Assembly (NCBI GenBank): GCA_902531885.1 | Contig: CACAFZ010000009.1 | Coordinates: forward strand, 1 to 33,663 | Reading direction: 5' to 3' | Origin: an uncultured Pelagibacteraceae bacterium | Lineage (GTDB): Bacteria; Pseudomonadota; Alphaproteobacteria; Pelagibacterales; Pelagibacteraceae | DNA: 33,663 bases | Shown: piece by piece, positions 6,870 through 19,475 of the stretch | Position numbering within the stretch: the first letter of the stretch is position 1 | How the letters are laid out: each line of letters starts with the position of its first letter | Position numbers and translations under genes: made by a program | Notes under the pieces: generated by a model | The model's database searches: none | What the model was told of the DNA's origin: nothing | What the model saw: the letters and a program-made list of their open reading frames with translations, nothing else

Positions 6870-8030
6870 TTGATTCCAAAAAAAAGAATTTTTTACTGGT
6901 CACCACACCTAACACATATTGCTACATCAAGAGCGGTAATTAATTCAGCATATAGTTTTAAAAAATATAGCAAGGAATACGAATGCTCTATAATAAATTT
7001 TTTTGGTGAATTTAATAAACACCATGAAGAATTAAATACAAAAGGCATCAAAACTCTCAACTTTTTTAACTCTAATATAATTAAATATTTACCTATTTAT
7101 GGAAAAGTAAAAAGTAGATTGTCTTTCTTAATTTTTTTTATATTAGGATTTTTTCCTTTGCTGTCTCTAATAAAGAAAAAAAAACCTAACTTTGTTATTA
7201 TACATTTGATAACATCATTACCATTAATTCAATTAATCTTATTTAATTTTGAGACAAAATTTATTCTTAGAATTTCTGGATTGCCTAGGCTAGGATTAAT
7301 AAGAACATTTATTTGGAAAATAGCTTTTAAAAAAATTTACGCTGTTACTTGTCCAACAAAAAATACTTATAATTATATAAAAAGTTTAAATATTGTAGAA
7401 AAATATAAATTAAAAGTTTTGTACGATCCTATATTAGAAGTTAATAAAATTAATAAAGATAAAAAAAAAAAAATAGATAAAAAGGAAGATTTTTTTTTAG
7501 CAGTAGGCAGGCTTACAAAGCAGAAAAATTTTTTATTTTTATGTAAAGCTATTAATAAATTTATTAATTTATTTCCAGAAAATAAAAAAATCAAATTGTT
7601 TATAGCTGGAGAGGGTGAACAAAAATCTTCTATACAAAATTTTTTAACGAAAAATAATCTTGAAAATAATATTTATTTACTAGGTCACCAAAAAAATATA
7701 TTTCCATATTTTAAAAATGCAAAAGGTTTTATCCTTTCATCTTTATGGGAAGATCCTGGTTTTGTTCTCATAGAAGCTGGTATATGCAGAACTCCAATTT
7801 TTTCTAGCGACGCTCTACCAGGACCTAAAGAAATTATACAAAATAATTTCAATGGTATACTTTTTAAAAATAATAATTTAGATAGTTTTCTTGAAAAATT
7901 TCCAATATTTATCAATAGCTTAAATAATAATAATCTTAGAATTAATAACTTAAAATATATTAAAAAATTCACAATTTTTAATCACTATAATACTTTTTTA
8001 AAAATTTTAGACAGAAGATTGGAGACATAA
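6870..8030 (+). CDS. Glycosyltransferase family 4
   Basis: ORF 386 aa, TTG-type start; AVGRLTKQKNFLFL, AGEGEQKSSI, LSSLWEDPGFVLIEAG motifs. Confidence 0.85.
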   Translation: MIPKKRIFYWSPHLTHIATSRAVINSAYSFKKYSKEYECSIINFFGEFNKHHEELNTKGIKTLNFFNSNIIKYLPIYGKVKSRLSFLIFFILGFFPLLSLIKKKKPNFVIIHLITSLPLIQLILFNFETKFILRISGLPRLGLIRTFIWKIAFKKIYAVTCPTKNTYNYIKSLNIVEKYKLKVLYDPILEVNKINKDKKKKIDKKEDFFLAVGRLTKQKNFLFLCKAINKFINLFPENKKIKLFIAGEGEQKSSIQNFLTKNNLENNIYLLGHQKNIFPYFKNAKGFILSSLWEDPGFVLIEAGICRTPIFSSDALPGPKEIIQNNFNGILFKNNNLDSFLEKFPIFINSLNNNNLRINNLKYIKKFTIFNHYNTFLKILDRRLET

Positions 8031-8113: not shown

Positions 8114-8335
8114 ATGAAGATGCTCTATTTATTATTATTAATTTTTATTACTTTAATTTCATTTACTTCTAATAGTTTTGCTTATCTCGATCCTGGAACT
8201 GGAAGCATAATATTACAAGCAATTCTAGGATTTGTAGCTGCCAGTATTGCAACCATAACATTATATTGGAATAAACTTAAAAATTTTTTCAAAAAACTAT
8301 TAAGTAAAAAAGATAAAAAGCCAGATGATTTTTGA
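8114..8335 (+). CDS. Small secreted/membrane protein with YLDPGTGS motif
   Basis: ORF 73 aa; N-terminal signal peptide ending SFA|YLDPGTGS, one transmembrane helix, Lys-rich tail; overlaps the next CDS. Confidence 0.75.
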   Translation: MKMLYLLLLIFITLISFTSNSFAYLDPGTGSIILQAILGFVAASIATITLYWNKLKNFFKKLLSKKDKKPDDF

Positions 8336-9704
8336 TAAAGGTTCTTTTAGAGATCAAGCAGGAAAGGTTTTTTACTCTAACAATAAAGTATATAGAATTA
8401 TCAACAAGGAAGGATTGAATAGATTACACTATATTATTGAGAAGAATATAATTGAAAAATCTATTAATGATAATTATTTGATTCAGACTAAATTAGTTGA
8501 AAAAAAAAATTTTTCTGAAGAATTTTCAAAAGATGATTTGATTTACGAACATGAAAAAATTCCATATATTTCATATCCTTATGAATGGTCATTTTCTCAG
8601 TTAAAAGCTGCGGCATTACACCATTTAGATTTTCATTTATATTTACTTGATCTTGGTGCGACTTTAATAGATGCATCAGCTTATAATATCCAATTTATTG
8701 GTCACAAACCGATATTTATAGATTTACTTTCTTTAAAAAAATATGAAGACGGTGAATATTGGACTGGGCATAAACAGTTTTGTGAAAATTTTCTTAATCC
8801 TCTTATCTTGCAGTCAAAAAAAGGTATAAATTTTAATAATTGGTTTAAAGGAAATTTGGAAGGAATTAAAACACAAGATTTAAATAATATTTTAAATTTT
8901 ACAGATAAAATTTCTTATAATATTTTTTTTCAAGTTTATTTGCTTAGCAAATTTGAAGAAAAATCTAAAAATTCTGAAATTAAAATTGAATCTAAGTTAA
9001 AAAAAAAATTTCCTAAAAAAAGTTATTGTTCTCTTTTGAAACAGTTAAAAAACTTTATTAAAGGACTAAAACCAAAAAAAAGTAAGACCCTTTGGGAGAA
9101 TTATTCAACAACCAATACTTATGATAAGATTGAGGAAAAAAATAAAATAGAATGTGTAAAAAAATTCATATCAAAAAATAGTTTTGATAGTCTATGTGAT
9201 TTAGGATGTAATAATGGTTTGTATTCAATATTATCATTACAAAATGGTTGTAAAAAAGTTATAGGATTTGATTATGATCTAAATGCAGTAGATCAAGCGT
9301 ATAATTTTTCTTGTAAAGATCAACTTAATTTTTTACCTATTTATTTTGACGCTTCCAACCCAAGCACAAGAATTGGATGGAATGAAGTTGAAAGAAAAAG
9401 TTTTAATGACAGAGCAAATTTTGATTGTGTTTTGGCTCTTGCTTTTAAACATCACTTAAGTTTAGCAAAAAACATCCCTTTAGATGAGGTAGTTATGTGG
9501 ATAATATCTTTGGCCCCAAAAGGACTAATTGAATTTGTTCCTAAAAGCGATGAAACGGTTAAAAAAATGTTGGAGATTAAAGGGGATATTTTTAAAAATT
9601 ATACCGAAGAAAATTTTGAAAAATATATAAAAGAAAATGGAAAAATAGTTTCAATAACAAATATAAGCAAATCTGGAAGAAAAATCTATGAGTTTGAAAG
9701 ATAA
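8325..9704 (+). CDS. Two-domain protein: N-terminal kinase-like domain plus C-terminal class I SAM methyltransferase
   Basis: ORF 459 aa; DASAYNIQFIGHKPIFIDLLS resembles a kinase catalytic loop plus DFG-like Asp; SLCDLGCNNGLYSIL...IGFDYDLNAV is SAM motif I/II. Confidence 0.75.
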   Translation: MIFDKGSFRDQAGKVFYSNNKVYRIINKEGLNRLHYIIEKNIIEKSINDNYLIQTKLVEKKNFSEEFSKDDLIYEHEKIPYISYPYEWSFSQLKAAALHHLDFHLYLLDLGATLIDASAYNIQFIGHKPIFIDLLSLKKYEDGEYWTGHKQFCENFLNPLILQSKKGINFNNWFKGNLEGIKTQDLNNILNFTDKISYNIFFQVYLLSKFEEKSKNSEIKIESKLKKKFPKKSYCSLLKQLKNFIKGLKPKKSKTLWENYSTTNTYDKIEEKNKIECVKKFISKNSFDSLCDLGCNNGLYSILSLQNGCKKVIGFDYDLNAVDQAYNFSCKDQLNFLPIYFDASNPSTRIGWNEVERKSFNDRANFDCVLALAFKHHLSLAKNIPLDEVVMWIISLAPKGLIEFVPKSDETVKKMLEIKGDIFKNYTEENFEKYIKENGKIVSITNISKSGRKIYEFER

Positions 9705-11118
9705 TTTATTAATTTTCTTTTGCTTTTTTCCTGTTTTTATTTTTAGGTCAAATTTCAGTAGTAAAGAAATTTTAATTATAATATTTTTTTTTACACTTTT
9801 TATTTTAGTTTTATTTTTTTTAAACAATATTTTAAATAGAAAAAATTTAATCAAAATAAAAATACCATTTATTTGCTTAGTTATTACATATGGGATAGAT
9901 AACCATTTGGGACTATTTAACGGTGTAATTTTACCGAATGAATCTTTTATTAAAATTTTTAAAATTATTTATATTCCTGCAATTTTACTATTATTTTTAA
10001 TTTTTTTTGTAAATTTATTTTTTTTTATATATTCTAAAGAAAAACAAAAAGTTTCTACTATTTTTCTTATATTTGTTTTTACTTTATTTTTATTCAATAT
10101 TTTTGATAACACTAAATCATATAAAAAAATACCAAATGTAATTAAAAAAACTGAATATGTGCCTAAAACAATTGATCTAATTTTAATTTTAGATGAAATG
10201 TCAGGTTTAAACTCTGCTGAGAGCAATTCAGTTTTAGGAAAGGAATTTGTTGATCTAGCTGAGAAATATTTTGAAAATAATAGTTTTGAATATTATCCAA
10301 ATGCATTCTCGACTTCTAAAAATAGTGTAACTGCAATATCATCTTTAATTAATTTAATAGAAAGAGTTACAGAAGAAGAGAGAAAAAAATTTGCAAAGAA
10401 ATCAAATAACTATTTTATTGACTATGATCTTATAGATTCAAAATTATTCGAAAAATTTAATTCAATATCAATATTTCAAAATATGCACGTAAATTATTGC
10501 TTCTTACCCAATGTAAAAAAATGTCAACAATTTAATCCTTTTGAAGCTAATGAATTTTTAAAAGGTTTTAAAAATAATTTTTTAACAAAATATTTTTCTT
10601 TTTGGCATTTAAATGGGTCAATAGTAGGAAAATTTTTTTGGAGAATAGGTAAGCAATTAAGAATTACAGATTCACTATCTGAACCAGAAGGACAAAAAGC
10701 ATCAATTGCTAAAACCTTAAGAGAGATAAATAATGATATTAGCAAAAATAAATTTGACTTAATTTTTGCACACTTATTGTTTCCCCATGTTCCATATGGA
10801 CTTGATAAAAATTGCAAATATTCAGGCAACCTAAGTAATATGAACAATTTTTTTAGCAAAAATAAAAAAACTAAAATTCACAATATTGAAAGAAAATGTG
10901 TTTTGTTTTTTTTAGATAATTTTATGAAAAAAATTTCCAATAATCATAATTTAAGAGTTATTTTACTTTCTGATCATGGTTCCAGAATTGAAGATACGCC
11001 CGAAAGTTCTAACTCAATAATTTTTGCTGTTAAAAACTTTAAAAGTAAAAAAGGTAAGAAAAATAATATGGAAATTTCTTCCCAAAGAATATTTATTGAT
11101 CTATATGGTGAAAAATAG
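9688..11118 (+). CDS. Membrane-anchored alkaline phosphatase/sulfatase superfamily protein
   Basis: ORF 476 aa; ~4 N-terminal hydrophobic segments, then DLILILDEM, FSTSKNSVTAISSL, HLLFPHVPY, VILLSDHGSR (AlkP-superfamily metal/nucleophile motifs). Confidence 0.75.
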   Translation: MSLKDNLLIFFCFFPVFIFRSNFSSKEILIIIFFFTLFILVLFFLNNILNRKNLIKIKIPFICLVITYGIDNHLGLFNGVILPNESFIKIFKIIYIPAILLLFLIFFVNLFFFIYSKEKQKVSTIFLIFVFTLFLFNIFDNTKSYKKIPNVIKKTEYVPKTIDLILILDEMSGLNSAESNSVLGKEFVDLAEKYFENNSFEYYPNAFSTSKNSVTAISSLINLIERVTEEERKKFAKKSNNYFIDYDLIDSKLFEKFNSISIFQNMHVNYCFLPNVKKCQQFNPFEANEFLKGFKNNFLTKYFSFWHLNGSIVGKFFWRIGKQLRITDSLSEPEGQKASIAKTLREINNDISKNKFDLIFAHLLFPHVPYGLDKNCKYSGNLSNMNNFFSKNKKTKIHNIERKCVLFFLDNFMKKISNNHNLRVILLSDHGSRIEDTPESSNSIIFAVKNFKSKKGKKNNMEISSQRIFIDLYGEK

Positions 11119-11895
11119 ATGAAATCATCAATATTGATCACATCATATAACAAGGGCAAATATTTGGAGCAATGTATATTGTCTTGTTTAAATCAAAATT
11201 CAATAAATGAATCTGAAATATTAGTTTTAGACAATTATTCTAATGATAACTCTGATCAAATTTTAAATAAATTTAAAGATAGAATCAAATTATTTAAAAA
11301 AAAAAAAATAAGCGAATCTCCAGCATTAAATCAAATTGATTTAATCAAAGAGGGCATGAAAATGAGCAAAGGCGATATAATTTTTTTTTTAGATGGTGAC
11401 GATTATTTTATAGAAAATAAAATATCTACTGTAAATAGTTTATTCGAAAAAAAAGTTAATTTAGATGTAGTTTTTGATCTACCCTTAAAAAAAAGAAATG
11501 ATAAATTTTCTAAATTTTTACTTAAAAAAAAGCTTAATGATAATGTTTGGCCCACAATAATTAATACAAGTTCTATAAGTGCAAAAAGAGAATTTGTTTC
11601 AGAAATATTAAATAAAACATTCATAGATCATTTTAACTTGTTAGAAATAGACTTTAGAATTAATGTTTACTCAAGGAATATAAAAAAAAATTTCACTATT
11701 ATTGAAAAACCTTATACAGTTTATAGACAATTAGACGACTCAATTATGGGTAACATAAAAAAATATTCTACCAAATGGTGGAAAAAAAGAGGACAGGCTC
11801 ATGAATTTATGAAAAATATATATTTTAATAATGGGATTAAATATAACAATAGAATAGATTTGTTACTAACCAGTATTATTAACAAAATAATTTAA
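11119..11895 (+). CDS. Glycosyltransferase family 2
   Basis: ORF 258 aa; SSILITSYNKGKYLEQCILSCLNQ, LVLDNYSNDNS, FFLDGDDYF; ATG immediately after upstream stop. Confidence 0.87.
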   Translation: MKSSILITSYNKGKYLEQCILSCLNQNSINESEILVLDNYSNDNSDQILNKFKDRIKLFKKKKISESPALNQIDLIKEGMKMSKGDIIFFLDGDDYFIENKISTVNSLFEKKVNLDVVFDLPLKKRNDKFSKFLLKKKLNDNVWPTIINTSSISAKREFVSEILNKTFIDHFNLLEIDFRINVYSRNIKKNFTIIEKPYTVYRQLDDSIMGNIKKYSTKWWKKRGQAHEFMKNIYFNNGIKYNNRIDLLLTSIINKII

Positions 11896-11901
11896 TAGTA
11901 A

Positions 11902-13545
11902 GTGAATTTACTAATATTTATAACTTTTTATATATTAATTACATTGTCCATAATAGGTTATGGATTAATTTTTGGTAAAATAATTTATAAAAAAAATACT
12001 CTCGAAATTGGTCAATCAGGTATATTTGGAATTTTCTTTATTACATTTTTAGCATATTTAACAAATTTTTTTTTACCTTTATCAAATCAAGTAAACCTTG
12101 CCATCCATTTTATTGGAATCGTATCCTTTTTTTATTTTTTTAAAAAAAAAAACTATTTTAATAAGAAAGAATTAATTACATTAATTTTTACAATTTTAAT
12201 TGTTATTTTTTTTATATTATCAGCAAAACCACACGATGATTTTCCATATTATCATTTTCCATATATAAATTTATTAAATAACGAAAATCTGCAAATCGGA
12301 ATAGGAAATTTTAATCATGGATTTAGAACATCTTCATCAATTTTTTATTTTTCATCTACTTTTTATTTACCAATTATAAAATATGAAATTATTCATATTG
12401 GATCGGCATTTTTTTTAATATTTGCAAATCTAATTTTATTAAAAAAATTAATCATTGACAAAAATAAATATAATAAATTTATACTAATCTTAGCTCTTCT
12501 ATCTTTTTCAATGATAAATATTTTCTTTTATAGAATTGGTGAACACGGGACAGACAAATCAGCACAGATTTTAATGATTTTGTTCGTGATTGAAATTTTA
12601 ATAATTTTAAATTACAAAAAAATCAATTTAGAAAATGTATCATTTGCGATAATATTAATTATTTTAGCAGCATCACTAAAAGTAATATATTTAATTTATT
12701 TATTATTCTTTTTAACTTTTATTTATTATACAAAAAATAAAATAAAATTTATTTTAGAAATAGTGAGATCTAAAATATTTGTGTTTTCATCAGTATTTAT
12801 CATTTTTGTAATTTCTGTAAATTTTTTTAACACAGGATGTTTATTATATCCTGCACCAATTACTTGCTTTGAAAATATTTATTGGTCTATCGCCCCAGAG
12901 GAAGTAAATGAAATGAACAAATGGTATCAACTTTGGGCAAAAGCAGGAGCAACTCCAATCTTTAGAACGAATAACCCAGAAGAATATATCAGTAATTTTT
13001 ATTGGGTTTCAAATTGGTTAAATAATTATTTTTTTAATAAAGTTTCCGATTACATTTTAGGCTTATTTTTTTTATCAATAATAATTCTGATAACATTCTA
13101 TAAAATAAACAAAAGTAGCTTTTTAACTCCTAAATATTTATTGATTTATTCTTTAGTGATAGTTTTATTTATTACATGGTTTATAAATCATCCTTCATTA
13201 AGATACGGAGGCTATCACTTAATATCGCTTATTTTATTTATTCCATTTTCAGTTCATTTATCAAAAAATACATATAATAATAAAAAATTTTATAGTAAGA
13301 TAATTTTAATTATTTCTATAATTTCATTAATATTTGTTGCAAGAAATGTTCAAAGAATATCCAAAGAGAATGAAGTTTATAATTATAATTTTTTAAAAAA
13401 TCCATCTTATGTTGAAAAATTTGAAAATCATGAATTGTATTCAAAAATTAATGCTACAAAAAAATGCAATATAGATAATTGTGTAGAAGCCACAATATTT
13501 TCTAAAAAAATTTTTGGAAGATATATATTTTTTAAAAAAAGATGA
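11902..13545 (+). CDS. Polytopic membrane protein, possible GT-C type glycosyltransferase
   Basis: ORF 547 aa with GTG start; many hydrophobic helices; early loop with PHDDFPYYHFPY. Confidence 0.55.
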   Translation: MNLLIFITFYILITLSIIGYGLIFGKIIYKKNTLEIGQSGIFGIFFITFLAYLTNFFLPLSNQVNLAIHFIGIVSFFYFFKKKNYFNKKELITLIFTILIVIFFILSAKPHDDFPYYHFPYINLLNNENLQIGIGNFNHGFRTSSSIFYFSSTFYLPIIKYEIIHIGSAFFLIFANLILLKKLIIDKNKYNKFILILALLSFSMINIFFYRIGEHGTDKSAQILMILFVIEILIILNYKKINLENVSFAIILIILAASLKVIYLIYLLFFLTFIYYTKNKIKFILEIVRSKIFVFSSVFIIFVISVNFFNTGCLLYPAPITCFENIYWSIAPEEVNEMNKWYQLWAKAGATPIFRTNNPEEYISNFYWVSNWLNNYFFNKVSDYILGLFFLSIIILITFYKINKSSFLTPKYLLIYSLVIVLFITWFINHPSLRYGGYHLISLILFIPFSVHLSKNTYNNKKFYSKIILIISIISLIFVARNVQRISKENEVYNYNFLKNPSYVEKFENHELYSKINATKKCNIDNCVEATIFSKKIFGRYIFFKKR

Positions 13546-13572: not shown

Positions 13573-14610
13573 TTAAAAACCTTGCATAGCCTTAAGCTCT
13601 TCTTCGACCATCTCGTCCACTAATTCTTTTACGCTTATTTTAGGTTTCCAATTAAGGTCTTTTCTTGCTTTTTTTGAGTCACCGAGCAAAGTATCTACCT
13701 CTAATGGTCTATAATAAGATTTGTCACACTCGATAATACATTTATCATTCATATAGCATTTCGTGTTTAAACCTTTTCCTTTCCACTGGTATTTTATATT
13801 TAATTTTTTTAAAACAAGATCCACAAATTGTTTAACAGTATATTGTTTGCCTGTAGCTATTACATAATCAGAAGGTTTCTTTTTTTGTAGCATTTTCCAC
13901 ATTGCTTCAACATAGTCTTTTGCATGCCCCCAATCTCTTTTCGCACTAAGATTTCCTAAATATAATTTTTTTTCTAAACCTAATTTAATTTTTACCATTC
14001 CATTTACAATTTTTTTTGTAACAAACGTTCCTCCCCTTACTGGGCTTTCGTGATTAAATAAAATTCCATTACAAGCGAATATATTGTAGGCTTCTCTATA
14101 ATTAATTGTTATCCAGTGGGCATATACTTTAGCTACACCATATGGACTTCTTGGATAAAATGGAGTTTTTTCATTTTGAGGAGTTTCTACAACTTTACCA
14201 AACATTTCAGAGGTTCCTGCTTGATAAAATTTAGTTTTTTTTTCTAATTTGTGAAACCTAATTGCTTCTAAAATTCTCAAAGAGCCTAAAGCATCGGCAT
14301 TTGCAGTGTACTCTGGAACTTCAAATGAAACAGCAACATGTGATTGGGCTGCAAGGTTATATATTTCATTTGGAGCTATTTTTTTTATTAAAGACGAAAC
14401 TGAAATCGCATCAGTTATATCTCCATAATGCAAAATAAACTTTCTATTTTTTTCATGAGGATCTTGATACAAATGTTCAATTCTGGCAGTGTTAAAGGAC
14501 GAAGACCTTCTTATCACACCATGTACTTCGTAATTTTTTTTTATCAATAGATCTGACAAATAAGATCCATCTTGTCCAGTCACACCAAATATTAAAGCTT
14601 TTTTTTTCAT
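13573..14610 (-). CDS. gmd: GDP-mannose 4,6-dehydratase
   Basis: ORF 345 aa; GVTGQDGSYLSDLL, GVIRRSSSFNTARIEHLYQDPH, NLAAQSHVAVSFEVPEYTA, AGTSEMFG, SPYGVAK, FNHESPVRGGTFVTKKI, RDWGHAKDYVEAMW. Confidence 0.97.
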   Translation of the reverse strand: MKKKALIFGVTGQDGSYLSDLLIKKNYEVHGVIRRSSSFNTARIEHLYQDPHEKNRKFILHYGDITDAISVSSLIKKIAPNEIYNLAAQSHVAVSFEVPEYTANADALGSLRILEAIRFHKLEKKTKFYQAGTSEMFGKVVETPQNEKTPFYPRSPYGVAKVYAHWITINYREAYNIFACNGILFNHESPVRGGTFVTKKIVNGMVKIKLGLEKKLYLGNLSAKRDWGHAKDYVEAMWKMLQKKKPSDYVIATGKQYTVKQFVDLVLKKLNIKYQWKGKGLNTKCYMNDKCIIECDKSYYRPLEVDTLLGDSKKARKDLNWKPKISVKELVDEMVEEELKAMQGF

Positions 14611-14696
14611 ATGTTCTTTTAACCAATAACACTTTCAATAAATTTAAACACTATTAATTATTTATATAAATTTATGATGTTATAACTAAGGCAATA

Positions 14697-15404
14697 CTAT
14701 ATTTTACTATTTTTATAAATATATTCAAAAGTTTTACGAAAATACATTTTTAATTTTAGTTCTTTTTTAAAGCCATTTTTTGTTAAATATTCATGTATGT
14801 CTGAAAAGTTATAGTTTTTTTTTAACATATCGTCAAAATGATGTTCAAAATAAATATAATTTATATTGTTAATTTTATCATTTGCACCTTTAATCACACT
14901 CAACTCATAACCCTCAGTATCAATTTTCAAAATATCAACATTATTTATTGAATGTTCTTTCATAAATTCACTTAAACAATTCATTTCTACATTAATTTTT
15001 GTTATTTCATTTTTTTTTAGGTTTAGAAAGTTAAGTATTTTATTTTTTTTTTTATAGTAATTAGAATCTTTATTTATATCAACCAATGTTGAAGATGAAC
15101 TTTCATCTAGCTGGTAAAAATTTACTTCCTCTTTTTTTTCACCTAATCCAAAATTGAAAATTTTTATATTTTTCTTTATTTTTGAAATTTCTTTTTTTAA
15201 ATAATTAAAATTAATTGGACTTGGTTCAAAACAATAAAATTGGTCAATATTAAAATTATTATTAAATAATTTCACAGTCTCTCCTTTATGTGCCCCTACG
15301 TCAAAGAAAATATTGAAATTAGTTTTTTCTGATTTAAAGTAGTTAATTATTTTTTTTTGATTATAATTATCAAATAAAGACAATATATAGATTATTAGTC
15401 TCAT
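14697..15404 (-). CDS. FkbM family methyltransferase
   Basis: ORF 235 aa; FDVGAHKGETVKLF, FEPSPINFNYL, VDILKIDTEGYELSVIKGA. Confidence 0.9.
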   Translation of the reverse strand: MRLIIYILSLFDNYNQKKIINYFKSEKTNFNIFFDVGAHKGETVKLFNNNFNIDQFYCFEPSPINFNYLKKEISKIKKNIKIFNFGLGEKKEEVNFYQLDESSSSTLVDINKDSNYYKKKNKILNFLNLKKNEITKINVEMNCLSEFMKEHSINNVDILKIDTEGYELSVIKGANDKINNINYIYFEHHFDDMLKKNYNFSDIHEYLTKNGFKKELKLKMYFRKTFEYIYKNSKI

Positions 15405-15504
15405 TAATTTAATTTTTTAAAATTTAATTTTTAAATGCATACTATATAATTTATTAATAAAATAATTGTATTATATAACTTATTTTTTAGATCGATAAAA
15501 TTTT

Positions 15505-16239
15505 ATGCAACTAGTTTCAGTAATAATGCCCTATTATAGAAAAAAAAGGCACGTTAAAAATTCAATCATTTCAGTTATCAATCAGTCATATAAGAATCTT
15601 GAATTAATAATTATTTATGATGATAAAGACTTAAATGACTTTGAATATATTCAAAGTATAACTAAAAAATATAGCAATATAAAAATTATTAAAAACAATA
15701 ATAATATTGGAGCGGGTTTATCTAGAAATAACGGAATCGAAAATTCAAAAGGAGATCTAATTGCTTTTTTAGATGCGGACGATAGTTGGTATGAAAAAAA
15801 AATAGAAAAACAGGTAACCTATCTAAATAAACAAAATTTAGATTTTGTATTTTGTGATTATGTAAAAAAAACTGGATCTAAATCAAAAAAAATTATTACT
15901 AACCGAAAAGCTCTTTCCTATAAAGATTTGCTTTATTCTTGTGATATTGGACTATCAACTGTACTAATTAAAAAAAAAATAATTTCCAAATATCCTTTTC
16001 CTTCCTTAAAAACAAAGGAAGATTTTGTTGTTTGGTTAAACATTGCAAAATCAGGAATAGTTCCAACAAATTTAAATGAAATACTTGTAGAATGGAATAA
16101 TGTTAGTGATTCTCTTTCATCTAATATCTTTCAAAAAATAAAGGATGGATACAGAGTATATCGAAATTTTCAAAACTTTAATTTTTTAGTATCTATTTAT
16201 TTTTTAATTGTTTTAAGTATTAATTCTTTAAAAAAATAG
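15505..16239 (+). CDS. Glycosyltransferase family 2
   Basis: ORF 244 aa; VSVIMPYYRKKRHVKNSIISVINQSY, GAGLSRNNGIENSKGDLIAFLDADDSW. Confidence 0.92.
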   Translation: MQLVSVIMPYYRKKRHVKNSIISVINQSYKNLELIIIYDDKDLNDFEYIQSITKKYSNIKIIKNNNNIGAGLSRNNGIENSKGDLIAFLDADDSWYEKKIEKQVTYLNKQNLDFVFCDYVKKTGSKSKKIITNRKALSYKDLLYSCDIGLSTVLIKKKIISKYPFPSLKTKEDFVVWLNIAKSGIVPTNLNEILVEWNNVSDSLSSNIFQKIKDGYRVYRNFQNFNFLVSIYFLIVLSINSLKK

Positions 16240-16244
16240 TTTAT

Positions 16245-17252
16245 CTATCGAATTTTAGCTTTTAAGAAATTATATGACAGAACATATACAATTACATTAT
16301 TTACAATTAGATACACTAGAATATCTGTGTGATAATAAAATTTAAAAGCAATTATAAAAGAAAATAAATTATAAATAATTATTATAAATGCGGTAATAAA
16401 ATGGTTTGTATTTTGTTCAAGATTATTTTTGGAACTTACATATTTGTAAATCATTTGATGAAGATGTTGTGTATCTGGATTGTAAGAATTTAATCCATTA
16501 ATTTGTCTTCTTATAATTGAAAAAAGTAATTCAAAACATGGATACCAAAGCAGCAATACAACAAAATAAGGTGAAATTAATATACTAGAATTAGAAAAGT
16601 CAATTAATTGTAAACCCAAATACAAAGATAGTAGATATGAACCTGAGTCTCCCAATATCAAGATACCAAATAAATTAAAGATAAGGAGTATAAAAACAAT
16701 GTAACTCAAATTTTTTATTGAGTCAGCATTATTTATAAACCCAGTAAAATTAATTAACATCAGTATAAAAATAATTAGAACATAAGATATTAATAAAGAG
16801 TTAATTCCGTCTACAAAATTGCTTCCGTTGATTAGTACTAATAAACAAAAAACTACAAAAAAATAATTAAACACATTATATTTCAACAATGTGTCAATAG
16901 GAATTAATCTCGTTTCTAAAATTTGTATATCTAACAAAACTATAAAAGGTAATAGTGTAATAAATTGTATTAAAAGTCTTTTATTAGGATTATTTAATAA
17001 TTTTAAATCTGAACAAAAACCAATTACAAAAAAACTAAAATAGAATAATAGAAAGTAAAAATCATTTTTTAATATTGCTTCATAAAATAAGAATGCAAAA
17101 ACAATTAAACCTCCAATAAAATAACTATTTTTTTTACCTACATATTTTTTATGTCTATCAATTTTATTATCTAGAAATATTTTATATTTTTTTGATACAA
17201 GAAGAACTATTCCAATTAAAATGATAACTAAGATATTGAATATATAGGACAT
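16245..17252 (-). CDS. Undecaprenyl-phosphate sugar-1-phosphate transferase (WecA/MraY family)
   Basis: NGSNFVDGINSLL, LGDSGSYLLSLYLG, HLHQMIYKY motifs; start placed at internal Met (MSYIFNILV) instead of the ORF-track start at 17366, which overlaps the divergent CDS. Confidence 0.83.
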   Translation of the reverse strand: MSYIFNILVIILIGIVLLVSKKYKIFLDNKIDRHKKYVGKKNSYFIGGLIVFAFLFYEAILKNDFYFLLFYFSFFVIGFCSDLKLLNNPNKRLLIQFITLLPFIVLLDIQILETRLIPIDTLLKYNVFNYFFVVFCLLVLINGSNFVDGINSLLISYVLIIFILMLINFTGFINNADSIKNLSYIVFILLIFNLFGILILGDSGSYLLSLYLGLQLIDFSNSSILISPYFVVLLLWYPCFELLFSIIRRQINGLNSYNPDTQHLHQMIYKYVSSKNNLEQNTNHFITAFIIIIYNLFSFIIAFKFYYHTDILVYLIVNNVIVYVLSYNFLKAKIR

Positions 17253-17349
17253 CAAAAATAATAATAATGTAGTGAAATGTTTATCATATTGTATAAAAGA
17301 TACTAATATAAAAAAATTTAATTTTTTAATATAAATAAAAATAAATAAA

Positions 17350-18240
17350 ATGAAGAAAAAAAACACAATCTTAGTAATAGGAGGCGCAGGATTTGTTGGT
17401 TCAAATCTAATTGAGTTCTTTTTAAAAAAAACTAATTATAAAATTATAAGTTATGATAACTATTCTACAGGAAGTTCAAAAAATCATATAAAAAATAAAA
17501 AAGTAAGATATTTAAAAGCTCATACAAAAGATATTTCAAAAAAAATGAATAAATTTAAAAATAATATTAATGCAGTTTTTCACTTTGGTGAATTTGCTAG
17601 AATTTATCAAAGTTTTTTAAAAATGGATGAATGTATTGAATCTAATACAATAGGAACCCATGCGGTTTTTAGATTTTGCATGGCAAATAAAATCAGATTA
17701 ATATATTCTGCTACTTCGGCAAGTCTCGGAAACCGTGGGACTGACAAAGATTTATCACCGTATGCGTTTACTAAAGCAAAAAATCTTGAAATGCTGGAAA
17801 ATCTAAAAAAATGGTTTGGATTTAAATATGAAATTATTTATTTTTATAATCTTTATGGACCAAGACAAATTTGTGAGGGAGAAATGGCAACGGTAATTGG
17901 TATATTTGAAAAACTTTATAAGGAAGGAAAGCCGATTACAGTTGTAAGGCCAGGGACACAATCGAGAAGATTTACTCATATTGATGATGCAATAAAGATT
18001 TGTTTTGAGGCTTGGTCAAAGAAGAAAAATTTACATTACAGTATTTCTCATAAAAAAGTTTATTCTCTTAAAACTGTGGCAAAACTTTTTAGTAAAAATA
18101 TAAAATTTTTACCTAAAAGACCTGGAGAAAGATATGCATCTGCACTTACTAATATGCACCTTTCCAATAAAGTATATAAAAGATTTGGAAAAATAGATCT
18201 TAAAGACTACGTTATTAAAATAAAAAAAATCATAAAATAA
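17350..18240 (+). CDS. NAD-dependent epimerase/dehydratase (extended SDR, UDP-glucose 4-epimerase-like)
   Basis: ORF 296 aa; VIGGAGFVGSNLIEFF, YAFTKAK (YxxxK), NLYGPRQ, RRFTHIDDAI. Confidence 0.85.
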   Translation: MKKKNTILVIGGAGFVGSNLIEFFLKKTNYKIISYDNYSTGSSKNHIKNKKVRYLKAHTKDISKKMNKFKNNINAVFHFGEFARIYQSFLKMDECIESNTIGTHAVFRFCMANKIRLIYSATSASLGNRGTDKDLSPYAFTKAKNLEMLENLKKWFGFKYEIIYFYNLYGPRQICEGEMATVIGIFEKLYKEGKPITVVRPGTQSRRFTHIDDAIKICFEAWSKKKNLHYSISHKKVYSLKTVAKLFSKNIKFLPKRPGERYASALTNMHLSNKVYKRFGKIDLKDYVIKIKKIIK

Positions 18241-18242
18241 TA

Positions 18243-19475
18243 TTAATCAAAAGTTTTAAAATTTCTTAAAGCAATTGAATAATTTATCCAAAATAATGTT
18301 GCCGTATATGATGTAAAAAAACTTCCCGAAGGAATAATAGGAAGCAAGCTTGCAAGAATAAATAATGTTGAAACTAATGCATAATCATCATCATTATTTT
18401 TAAATTTTTTTAAATTTTTAAAAATAAAATATATAAAATAACCAATAAGTAAAATATATCCAACAATCCCTAATTCCGAGAGTATTTCAAAGTGAACTTG
18501 ATGCGGATGAGTTGATCCACAATAATGAACATTTCCATCTGGTTTAGGATGTGCGTATTTTTCTTTCCAACTTTCCAATCTATATTTTTTTAATCCAACT
18601 CCAAAAATTGGATTATCCTTAAAAACTTCAATTCCAGTATTATACTGACAAATATGATTACTTCGTGTTTTGCTAAATTCTAATGTAAATAAATCTATTG
18701 TTGAGTCGTAAAATCTATTTTTTAGAAGTTCGCTATTATAAATTATAAAACATGAGATTATAGTGATAAATAAAATGCTAATTATTTTTTTATAAAAAGA
18801 AATATTTTTCAATAATAAAAAAAACAAAAAACTCATAAAAAATATTTTTATAAAATTTGACCTTTCTCCAATTAAAAGCGATACTGTTAAGAAAATAATG
18901 AAAAATATATAAAATATTCTATTATTATAATTTTTTATAAAGATTGTTGAAATCATTATAAAGGCAAAATAAAATCCACCTATTTTTAATTCATCACCTG
19001 TAAAGCTAGCTAGTCTTCCTTCATAATTTGATTGAAATTTTAATAAATTGAAACCAAAAATATACTCAAAAATTAAGTCAATTGTTACTACAATAAAAAC
19101 AAAAGTCCAAAATTTAAAAATAACTTTTTCATATTGTCTATTATTTATATTTAAGTAATAATAAATTGCATATGCAAGCAATATATATCTAAAGAATCCA
19201 ACGGCTCTAATAAGGCTATCACTGTTTATTCCGGTTAAAACTGAGTTTAAAATTAAGTAAATATTAAAACCAATCAAAAAGTAAAAATTTCTATCCTTTA
19301 AAAAAAAGATTTTTTTATCTCTTTTGCAATCTAGTAAAAAAATACAAATTATTAAAAATGTAGTAATATTTGTAAATGTAGAGTTAATTAATAATGATAT
19401 TGGCAAGAAAAAAATTAAATATATATTTTTTTTCTCATATAATGTGAAATTGGGCAAATTTTTGCTGAAGTTCAT
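18243..19475 (-). CDS. O-antigen ligase/polymerase family membrane protein
   Basis: ORF 410 aa; polytopic; GVGLKKYRLE...STHPHQVHFEILSELGIVGYIL characteristic Wzy_C/O-antigen ligase region. Confidence 0.87.
   Translation of the reverse strand: MNFSKNLPNFTLYEKKNIYLIFFLPISLLINSTFTNITTFLIICIFLLDCKRDKKIFFLKDRNFYFLIGFNIYLILNSVLTGINSDSLIRAVGFFRYILLAYAIYYYLNINNRQYEKVIFKFWTFVFIVVTIDLIFEYIFGFNLLKFQSNYEGRLASFTGDELKIGGFYFAFIMISTIFIKNYNNRIFYIFFIIFLTVSLLIGERSNFIKIFFMSFLFFLLLKNISFYKKIISILFITIISCFIIYNSELLKNRFYDSTIDLFTLEFSKTRSNHICQYNTGIEVFKDNPIFGVGLKKYRLESWKEKYAHPKPDGNVHYCGSTHPHQVHFEILSELGIVGYILLIGYFIYFIFKNLKKFKNNDDDYALVSTLFILASLLPIIPSGSFFTSYTATLFWINYSIALRNFKTFD

Follow-up and report, generated by a model that had tools for sequence, protein, structure and literature searches.

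The window analysed here is a stretch of 33,663 nucleotides from an uncultured Pelagibacteraceae bacterium and corresponds to contig C9 of a 0.88-Mb assembly, which is 71% complete and whose nearest relatives in the genome collection also belong to the Pelagibacteraceae. Three genes, here called P, K and A, form a compact cassette in this window. They are transcribed from the same strand and overlap end to start, as already noted in the initial annotation; in the ORF list the overlap is 11 nt for P and K and 17 nt for K and A. The start of the next gene, at 11119, is the base that follows the stop codon of A. The cassette and its surroundings include the following features:

6870-8030, + strand, GT4 glycosyltransferase gene of the upstream context (PF00534, 8.7e-30)
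8114-8335, + strand, P, small membrane protein of 73 aa (ORF calling)
8114-8182, + strand, predicted signal peptide of P, residues 1-23 (AxA-type site before the conserved Tyr)
8183-8206, + strand, predicted start of mature P, YLDPGTGS (motif read from the sequence)
8325-9704, + strand, K, NoeA-type kinase-methyltransferase of 459 aa (ORF calling)
8325-9074, + strand, kinase-like domain of K, residues 1-250 (AlphaFold2 model and fold matches)
8670-8687, + strand, D116/N121 of K (alignment of 17 homologues)
8721-8723, + strand, D133 of K (alignment of 17 homologues)
9093-9701, + strand, class I SAM methyltransferase domain of K (Foldseek match to methyltransferases)
9198-9218, + strand, SAM motif DLGCNNG of K, residues 292-298 (sequence motif)
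9688-11118, + strand, A, NoeB-type AlkP-superfamily membrane enzyme of 476 aa (hhalign to NoeB, family alignment)
10192-10194, + strand, D169 of A (family alignment)
10324-10326, + strand, nucleophile S213 of A (family alignment)
10786-10788, + strand, H367 of A (family alignment)
10972-10977, + strand, D429-H430 of A (family alignment)
11119-11895, + strand, GT2 glycosyltransferase gene (PF00535, 2.6e-19)
11902-13545, + strand, gene for a polytopic membrane protein of the LIC_10190 family, within the polysaccharide cluster (NF047510, 2e-32)
13573-19475, no strand assigned, remaining part of the surface-polysaccharide cluster (Pfam)

The window cassette sits within a Pelagibacteraceae surface-polysaccharide cluster. 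To the left of it are genes coding for an aminotransferase, a hexapeptide transferase and glycosyltransferases. The right part of the cluster codes, according to Pfam, for a GDP-mannose dehydratase, an FkbM methyltransferase, a GT2 enzyme, an epimerase, a polyprenyl-phosphate sugar transferase (PF00953) and a Wzy_C O-antigen ligase family protein. The cassette is accessory within the family, with a full-length match in 6 of 197 Pelagibacteraceae genomes. Glycan-related genes also surround the Novosphingobium, Smac51 and phage copies, and two other Pelagibacteraceae cassettes (L004 and L005) have housekeeping genes as neighbours and no glycan cluster.

P reads MKMLYLLLLIFITLISFTSNSFA^YLDPGTGSIILQ..., ^ marking the predicted cleavage point. 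It has hydrophobic segments at residues 1-19 and 32-50, the latter being the transmembrane helix, and ends with a basic tail. This arrangement and the YLDPGTGS motif are as initially described, while removal of the signal peptide, part of the same description, is a prediction. In 42 of 46 members of the P family the residues ahead of the Tyr match an AxA-type signal-peptidase site; two homologues from viruses have no signal and begin with M-YLD. A signal-bearing P cut before the Tyr would therefore yield the same mature protein as the viral form. Mature P is predicted to have the Tyr near its N-terminus outside, a single helix and the basic tail inside. Among 44 distinct P motifs, position 1 is Tyr in all 44, and Asp at position 3 and Gln at position 12 are each found in 43. 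Phosphorylation of the Thr or Ser of PGTGS was considered as a general function and rejected, because Ala, Gly, Asn, Leu and Ile also occur there. Window P had no match above the cut-off in Pfam, NCBIfam, PHROGs and PADLOC, nor did its S. meliloti homologue in Pfam, NCBIfam and PADLOC. A search of the plasmid collection with the P consensus returned nothing and was blind, missing even the S. meliloti copy present there.

A search of K against Pfam and NCBIfam returned a weak methyltransferase match alone, and predicted structures were more informative. The AlphaFold2 model of whole K (ten homologues; pLDDT 85, pTM 0.88) is matched by Foldseek to methyltransferases in the PDB with E about 1e-7. 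When the N-terminal 250 residues were modelled alone (AlphaFold2; pLDDT 84, pTM 0.84), all 50 of the 50 PDB fold matches listed were kinases, the best E being 2.1e-5 and the TM-scores 0.3-0.5. A fold other than kinase-like in this part had been named in the initial annotation as a refuting result; the predicted fold is kinase-like. DASAYN, running from D116 to N121, and FIDLLS, containing D133, are at the positions initially given for the catalytic loop; the SAM half has the DLGCNNG motif together with D316 and D318. Across 17 diverse K homologues D116, N121, D133 and R24 (the last one in an N-lobe strand) are invariant, and so are the SAM-site residues D292, G294, N296, G298, D316 and D318. 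As modelled, K has an intact kinase-like site and an intact SAM site.

K shares 40% identity with Sinorhizobium NoeA in an alignment covering 99% of K (E about 1e-101) and is a member of the NoeA / Lani_1194 kinase-methyltransferase family. According to PMC9758233, this family has Arg in place of the usual kinase Lys, and the ion-pair Glu could not be identified. Both points leave room for K being an atypical or even inactive kinase. K was also considered as a part of a defence system; this was dropped, as PADLOC gave only a weak generic match, to the methyltransferase part of NoeA.

A begins with a hydrophobic region reaching to about residue 140, in which hydropathy shows several hydrophobic segments. 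Its catalytic domain would be periplasmic. The family alignment gives D169, S213, H362, H367, D429 and H430 as catalytic residues. Window A scores weakly against PF00884, NoeB and several homologues score above the cut-off, and a profile of four A sequences aligns with NoeB (hhalign P = 1.8e-14). In an alignment of 47 A sequences, all those that cover the nucleophile region have Ser or Thr as the nucleophile (one is truncated at this point), and the metal-binding Asp and His residues are mostly retained. The CxPSR motif of formylglycine sulfatases was not found in the aligned homologues. Since the nucleophile is Ser/Thr and not Cys, A fits phosphotransferases or phosphodiesterases and not formylglycine sulfatases, and sulfatase activity was ruled out for it. 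Of the initial label “AlkP/sulfatase-like”, the superfamily assignment is borne out by the catalytic residues and by the similarity to NoeB, while “sulfatase-like” misleads as a statement of function. No PDB sequence was matched by a profile of A. The Singulisphaera homologue is annotated as LTA synthase family.

Association of the three families was examined in two sets. Among 399 Pseudomonadota genomes K was found in 9 (including G321 with a divergent form), P in 17 and both in 8. P is thus present in 8 of 9 K-bearing genomes versus 9 of 390 others (Fisher p = 1.4e-11), so the co-occurrence is not due to chance. In 8 of the 8 genomes with both, P and K are at most about 2 kb apart. The second set, 45 non-redundant K loci, covers Pelagibacteraceae, other Alphaproteobacteria, a further Pseudomonadota class, Gemmatirosa, Singulisphaera, a deltaproteobacterial plasmid and three viral contigs. 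In 41 of these loci K has P no more than 3 kb away, in 38 it has A at this distance and in 38 both, counts to be read with the shared ancestry of the loci (ten are from Pelagibacteraceae) and the non-systematic sampling of phyla beyond the genome set in mind. An AlkP gene about 4.4 kb from K in G883 was left out of the count, and one in G058 was missed by the profile and recognised by eye alone. In 33 of the 45 loci P is the gene immediately upstream of K, the two overlapping or lying at most 50 nt apart; P is missing from the surroundings of K in four. Some of the 45 loci carry A on the opposite strand. P-K-A, P-A-K, A-P-K and A-K-P orders were all observed, which indicates that the linkage is more than inherited synteny. 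Lack of co-occurrence was the other refuting result named in the initial annotation; the three families in fact co-occur widely, in several phyla and in viral contigs, and the statement that similar PGTGS proteins accompany these genes in other bacteria is borne out. P is the most constant partner of K.

Relatives are encoded in the classical nodL-noeA-noeB operon of S. meliloti pSymA, with a P homologue between nodL and noeA:

L017, 3715-3963, ORF between nodL and noeA on S. meliloti pSymA

The product of this ORF is 82 aa long, with AHA^YLDPGTGSMLVQ at its predicted cleavage site. The ORF overlaps noeA by 23 nt, and noeB starts 6 nt past noeA. The counterpart ORF in Ensifer canadensis is annotated as a hypothetical protein. 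The noeA/noeB operon is needed for nodulation of particular Medicago species and so affects host range, and Nod-factor modification by NoeA and NoeB has been put forward as a hypothesis only (PMC9048898, PMC4053727).

Three of the K loci are on viral contigs:

L059, 6180-10019, P-K-A on viral contig G594
L050, 2582-5533, and L060, 920-2393, P-K-A or P-K on small viral contigs

G594 is a 40.8-kb, tailed-phage-like IMG/VR contig with terminase-, portal-, capsid-, tape-measure- and tail-like ORFs, in which P-K-A directly follows a tail-fibre-like region and is itself followed by FkbM-like and glycosyltransferase-like ORFs; these names come from reading of the sequences, with no library match. One of the small contigs carries P-K-A, and in the other P-K runs to the contig end. 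Both encode a Zot/pI-like ATPase, identified in one of them, and it is their P that has no signal peptide and begins with M-YLD. Lysogenic-conversion genes are often located right after tail-fibre genes, and phage genes in this position often alter the host surface. The phage-borne cassette may likewise alter the host surface after lysogeny. PHROGs gave weak methyltransferase and unnamed matches only for the viral copies, and tblastn of two viral kinase-methyltransferases against the annotated phage collection found no match; membership in a known phage gene family was rejected on these grounds.

P-like proteins also occur without K. Such matches mostly carry a variant motif, AxA-Y[IV]GPG. Homology of this subfamily with P is shown by hhalign (P 3.6e-10) and by its profile, which finds window P at 1.4e-6. 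Nine loci were inspected:

L091, 1446-1685, YxGPG homologue of P
L093, 6638-7183, YxGPG homologue of P
L094, 5357-5560, YxGPG homologue of P
L096, 6442-6753, YxGPG homologue of P
L162, 6464-6769, YxGPG homologue of P
L097, 5669-5986, YxGPG homologue of P
L157, 6365-6646, YxGPG homologue of P
L158, 6532-6813, YxGPG homologue of P
L159, 6231-6497, YxGPG homologue of P

At all nine, genes for a cytosolic sulfotransferase of PF13469 type and a membrane-anchored arylsulfotransferase of PF14269 type share the strand of the homologue and lie no more than 2 kb from it; the K loci that were scanned contained neither. Some of these loci have an extra membrane ORF of about 125-131 aa between the sulfotransferase and the arylsulfotransferase. 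In G309 (L092, 5095-8522) a P homologue with YIDPNAGS is located between a sulfotransferase and a PF00884 enzyme. This locus is possibly an intermediate between both systems.

A third type of partner was seen in one genome, G690, where P is the N-terminus of a 432-aa protein and the rest matches PF04464, with a cytidylyltransferase and an EamA-type transporter encoded nearby:

L160, 4633-5931, - strand, P fused to CDP-glycerol glycerophosphotransferase

PF04464 enzymes are cytosolic. The fusion therefore suggests that the C-terminal side of P is in the cytoplasm. Three unrelated cytosolic enzymes for anionic groups (phosphate/methyl, sulfate and glycerophosphate) use one small membrane module, and for two of these enzymes the partner is a transferase that is probably periplasmic. 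Sharing of P by the three enzyme systems suggests that it would be a membrane docking or coupling subunit, with K as the loader and A as the periplasmic transferase.

Overall, the probable role of the cassette is to add phosphate groups to sugars or lipids of the cell surface. In its specific form, our preferred reading is that P, K and A make up a three-component membrane-spanning machine which adds a phosphate-based group to an envelope molecule, a lipid-linked or surface glycan being the likeliest; we give this form an about even chance. In the cytoplasm, K would phosphorylate a membrane-tethered acceptor or carrier and methylate it, plausibly on the new phosphate. P, with YLDPGTGS in the periplasm, one helix and a basic cytoplasmic tail, would be the small membrane subunit which docks K and links it to A. 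As a periplasmic phosphotransferase, A would transfer or rearrange a phosphodiester group on the outer face. Methylated phosphate seems the likeliest added group, methylation of the phosphate being argued by analogy.

This three-component reading is favoured by the linkage of P and A to K, the K active sites, the Ser/Thr nucleophile of A, the glycan-cluster setting, the Medicago host range, the phage copy, the sulfotransferase pairing and the fusion. The glycan capping or modification proposed initially is plausible in view of the gene context, the NoeA/NoeB link and the phage copy beside tail fibre genes. Against the three-component reading speak the housekeeping setting of L004 and L005, which also fits a lipid or a common acceptor, the opposite strand of A in some loci, the four loci with K and no P, and the Arg and ion-pair Glu points, which allow an atypical or inactive kinase.

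Among the alternatives, K alone might act as a chain terminator of WbdD type, capping the non-reducing end of a lipid-linked polysaccharide with methyl phosphate in the cytoplasm, with A and P in secondary roles (editing, export, docking). WbdD, the O-antigen terminator of E. coli O9a, adds phosphate to the terminal mannose and afterwards a methyl group to this phosphate (PMC3482155), so the pair of activities is the same. Like K, it has kinase and methyltransferase in one polypeptide; it acts on glycans at the membrane, as K may. The many fold matches of whole K include WbdD (4azs), with the match lying in the methyltransferase part, and the 7SK methylphosphate capping enzyme (6dcb). However, WbdD has the methyltransferase first, then the kinase and a coiled coil, belongs to a separate sequence family and is defined without a small membrane protein or an AlkP enzyme. 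In sequence, K matches it at the SAM motif only (E 0.25 or worse), with no full-length similarity. The comparison with WbdD made at the outset survives as an analogy of activities and not as homology over the full length. Given also that P and A are nearly always present and that the cassette occurs outside glycan clusters (L004, L005), we find a terminator of this kind unlikely.

A purely lipid-modifying system, in which the head group of a membrane lipid receives phosphate and methyl from K, and A exchanges head groups among lipids with no glycan acceptor involved, would agree with the combination of a membrane domain and an AlkP domain in A, as in LtaS/EptA, with the annotation of the Singulisphaera homologue and with the cassettes standing among housekeeping genes. 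The window, Novosphingobium, Smac51 and phage copies are located among glycan-related genes, and this possibility too looks unlikely to us.

The first mature Tyr of P could itself be the carrier: the cytosolic enzyme would esterify it (to methylphospho-Tyr, or to sulfo-Tyr in the sulfotransferase version), P would be exported and A or the arylsulfotransferase would pass the group to the acceptor. The Tyr is invariant in the 44 distinct motifs and is kept in the sulfotransferase-linked subfamily. According to PMC13426309, arylsulfotransferases take aromatic sulfates as donors in place of PAPS, so a phenolic carrier that receives its sulfate from a PAPS-type enzyme would explain the pairing of both enzymes. 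However, the Tyr is expected on the periplasmic side, out of reach of the cytosolic enzyme unless modification precedes export, and one protein would be spent or recycled per transfer. We regard this relay as improbable. A broader proposal is that the P family comprises unrecognised membrane partners common to the kinase-methyltransferase/AlkP, sulfotransferase/arylsulfotransferase and glycerophosphotransferase systems, and that its N-terminal Tyr carries or positions the anionic group en route to the periplasm; in this full form we consider it rather unlikely. Decoration of a secreted molecule such as Nod factor, or an effector role of the proteins, is suggested by the part of NoeA/NoeB in nodulation host range and by the Legionella members listed as putative effectors in PMC9758233, but it is very improbable, since the cassette is also present in free-living SAR11, Planctomycetota, Gemmatimonadota and phages, and A and P look like resident membrane proteins.

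With the three-component machine as the preferred reading, the hitherto unexplained NoeA and NoeB gain a third, overlooked partner and a place in a widespread bacterial and viral envelope-modification cassette, and their chemistry becomes testable in a laboratory rhizobium. Occurrence of P beside sulfotransferase and arylsulfotransferase points to a shared mechanism by which anionic groups bound for surface molecules are handled at the inner membrane. We know of no settled physiological donor for arylsulfotransferases, and the pairing with P proposes where to look for it.

Enzymes of the EptA/LtaS/OpgB type consist of an N-terminal membrane domain and a periplasmic AlkP domain with a Ser/Thr nucleophile and Asp/His metal ligands; EptA/LtaS-type phosphotransferases have about 5 TM helices and take their head group from a phospholipid-derived donor. 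A resembles them in its N-terminal membrane region, AlkP domain, nucleophile and ligands, and differs in having no sequence match to a solved structure. The Lani_1194 kinase-methyltransferases were described in 2022 with NoeA as a homologue, and in PMC9758233 they share with K the N-terminal kinase-like domain with Arg for Lys, the C-terminal class I methyltransferase and the common AlkP-fold neighbour (Lani_1195/NoeB). The K and A neighbourhood is, accordingly, already known from that source. A second conserved neighbour, Lani_1193, is reported there for 65% of neighbourhoods and may be a P homologue. The sulfate parallel and the viral copies found here are absent from the passages of PMC9758233 available to us. 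With the proviso on Lani_1193, the constant small partner, its sharing across systems and the viral copies appear to be new within the libraries and literature searched. In the nodL-noeA-noeB operon (nod box n5), NoeA corresponds to K, NoeB to A and the small ORF overlapping noeA to P. Unlike the window cassette, that operon is plasmid-borne, under nodulation control and next to nodL, and its small ORF is unnamed, whereas the window copy is part of a marine polysaccharide cluster.
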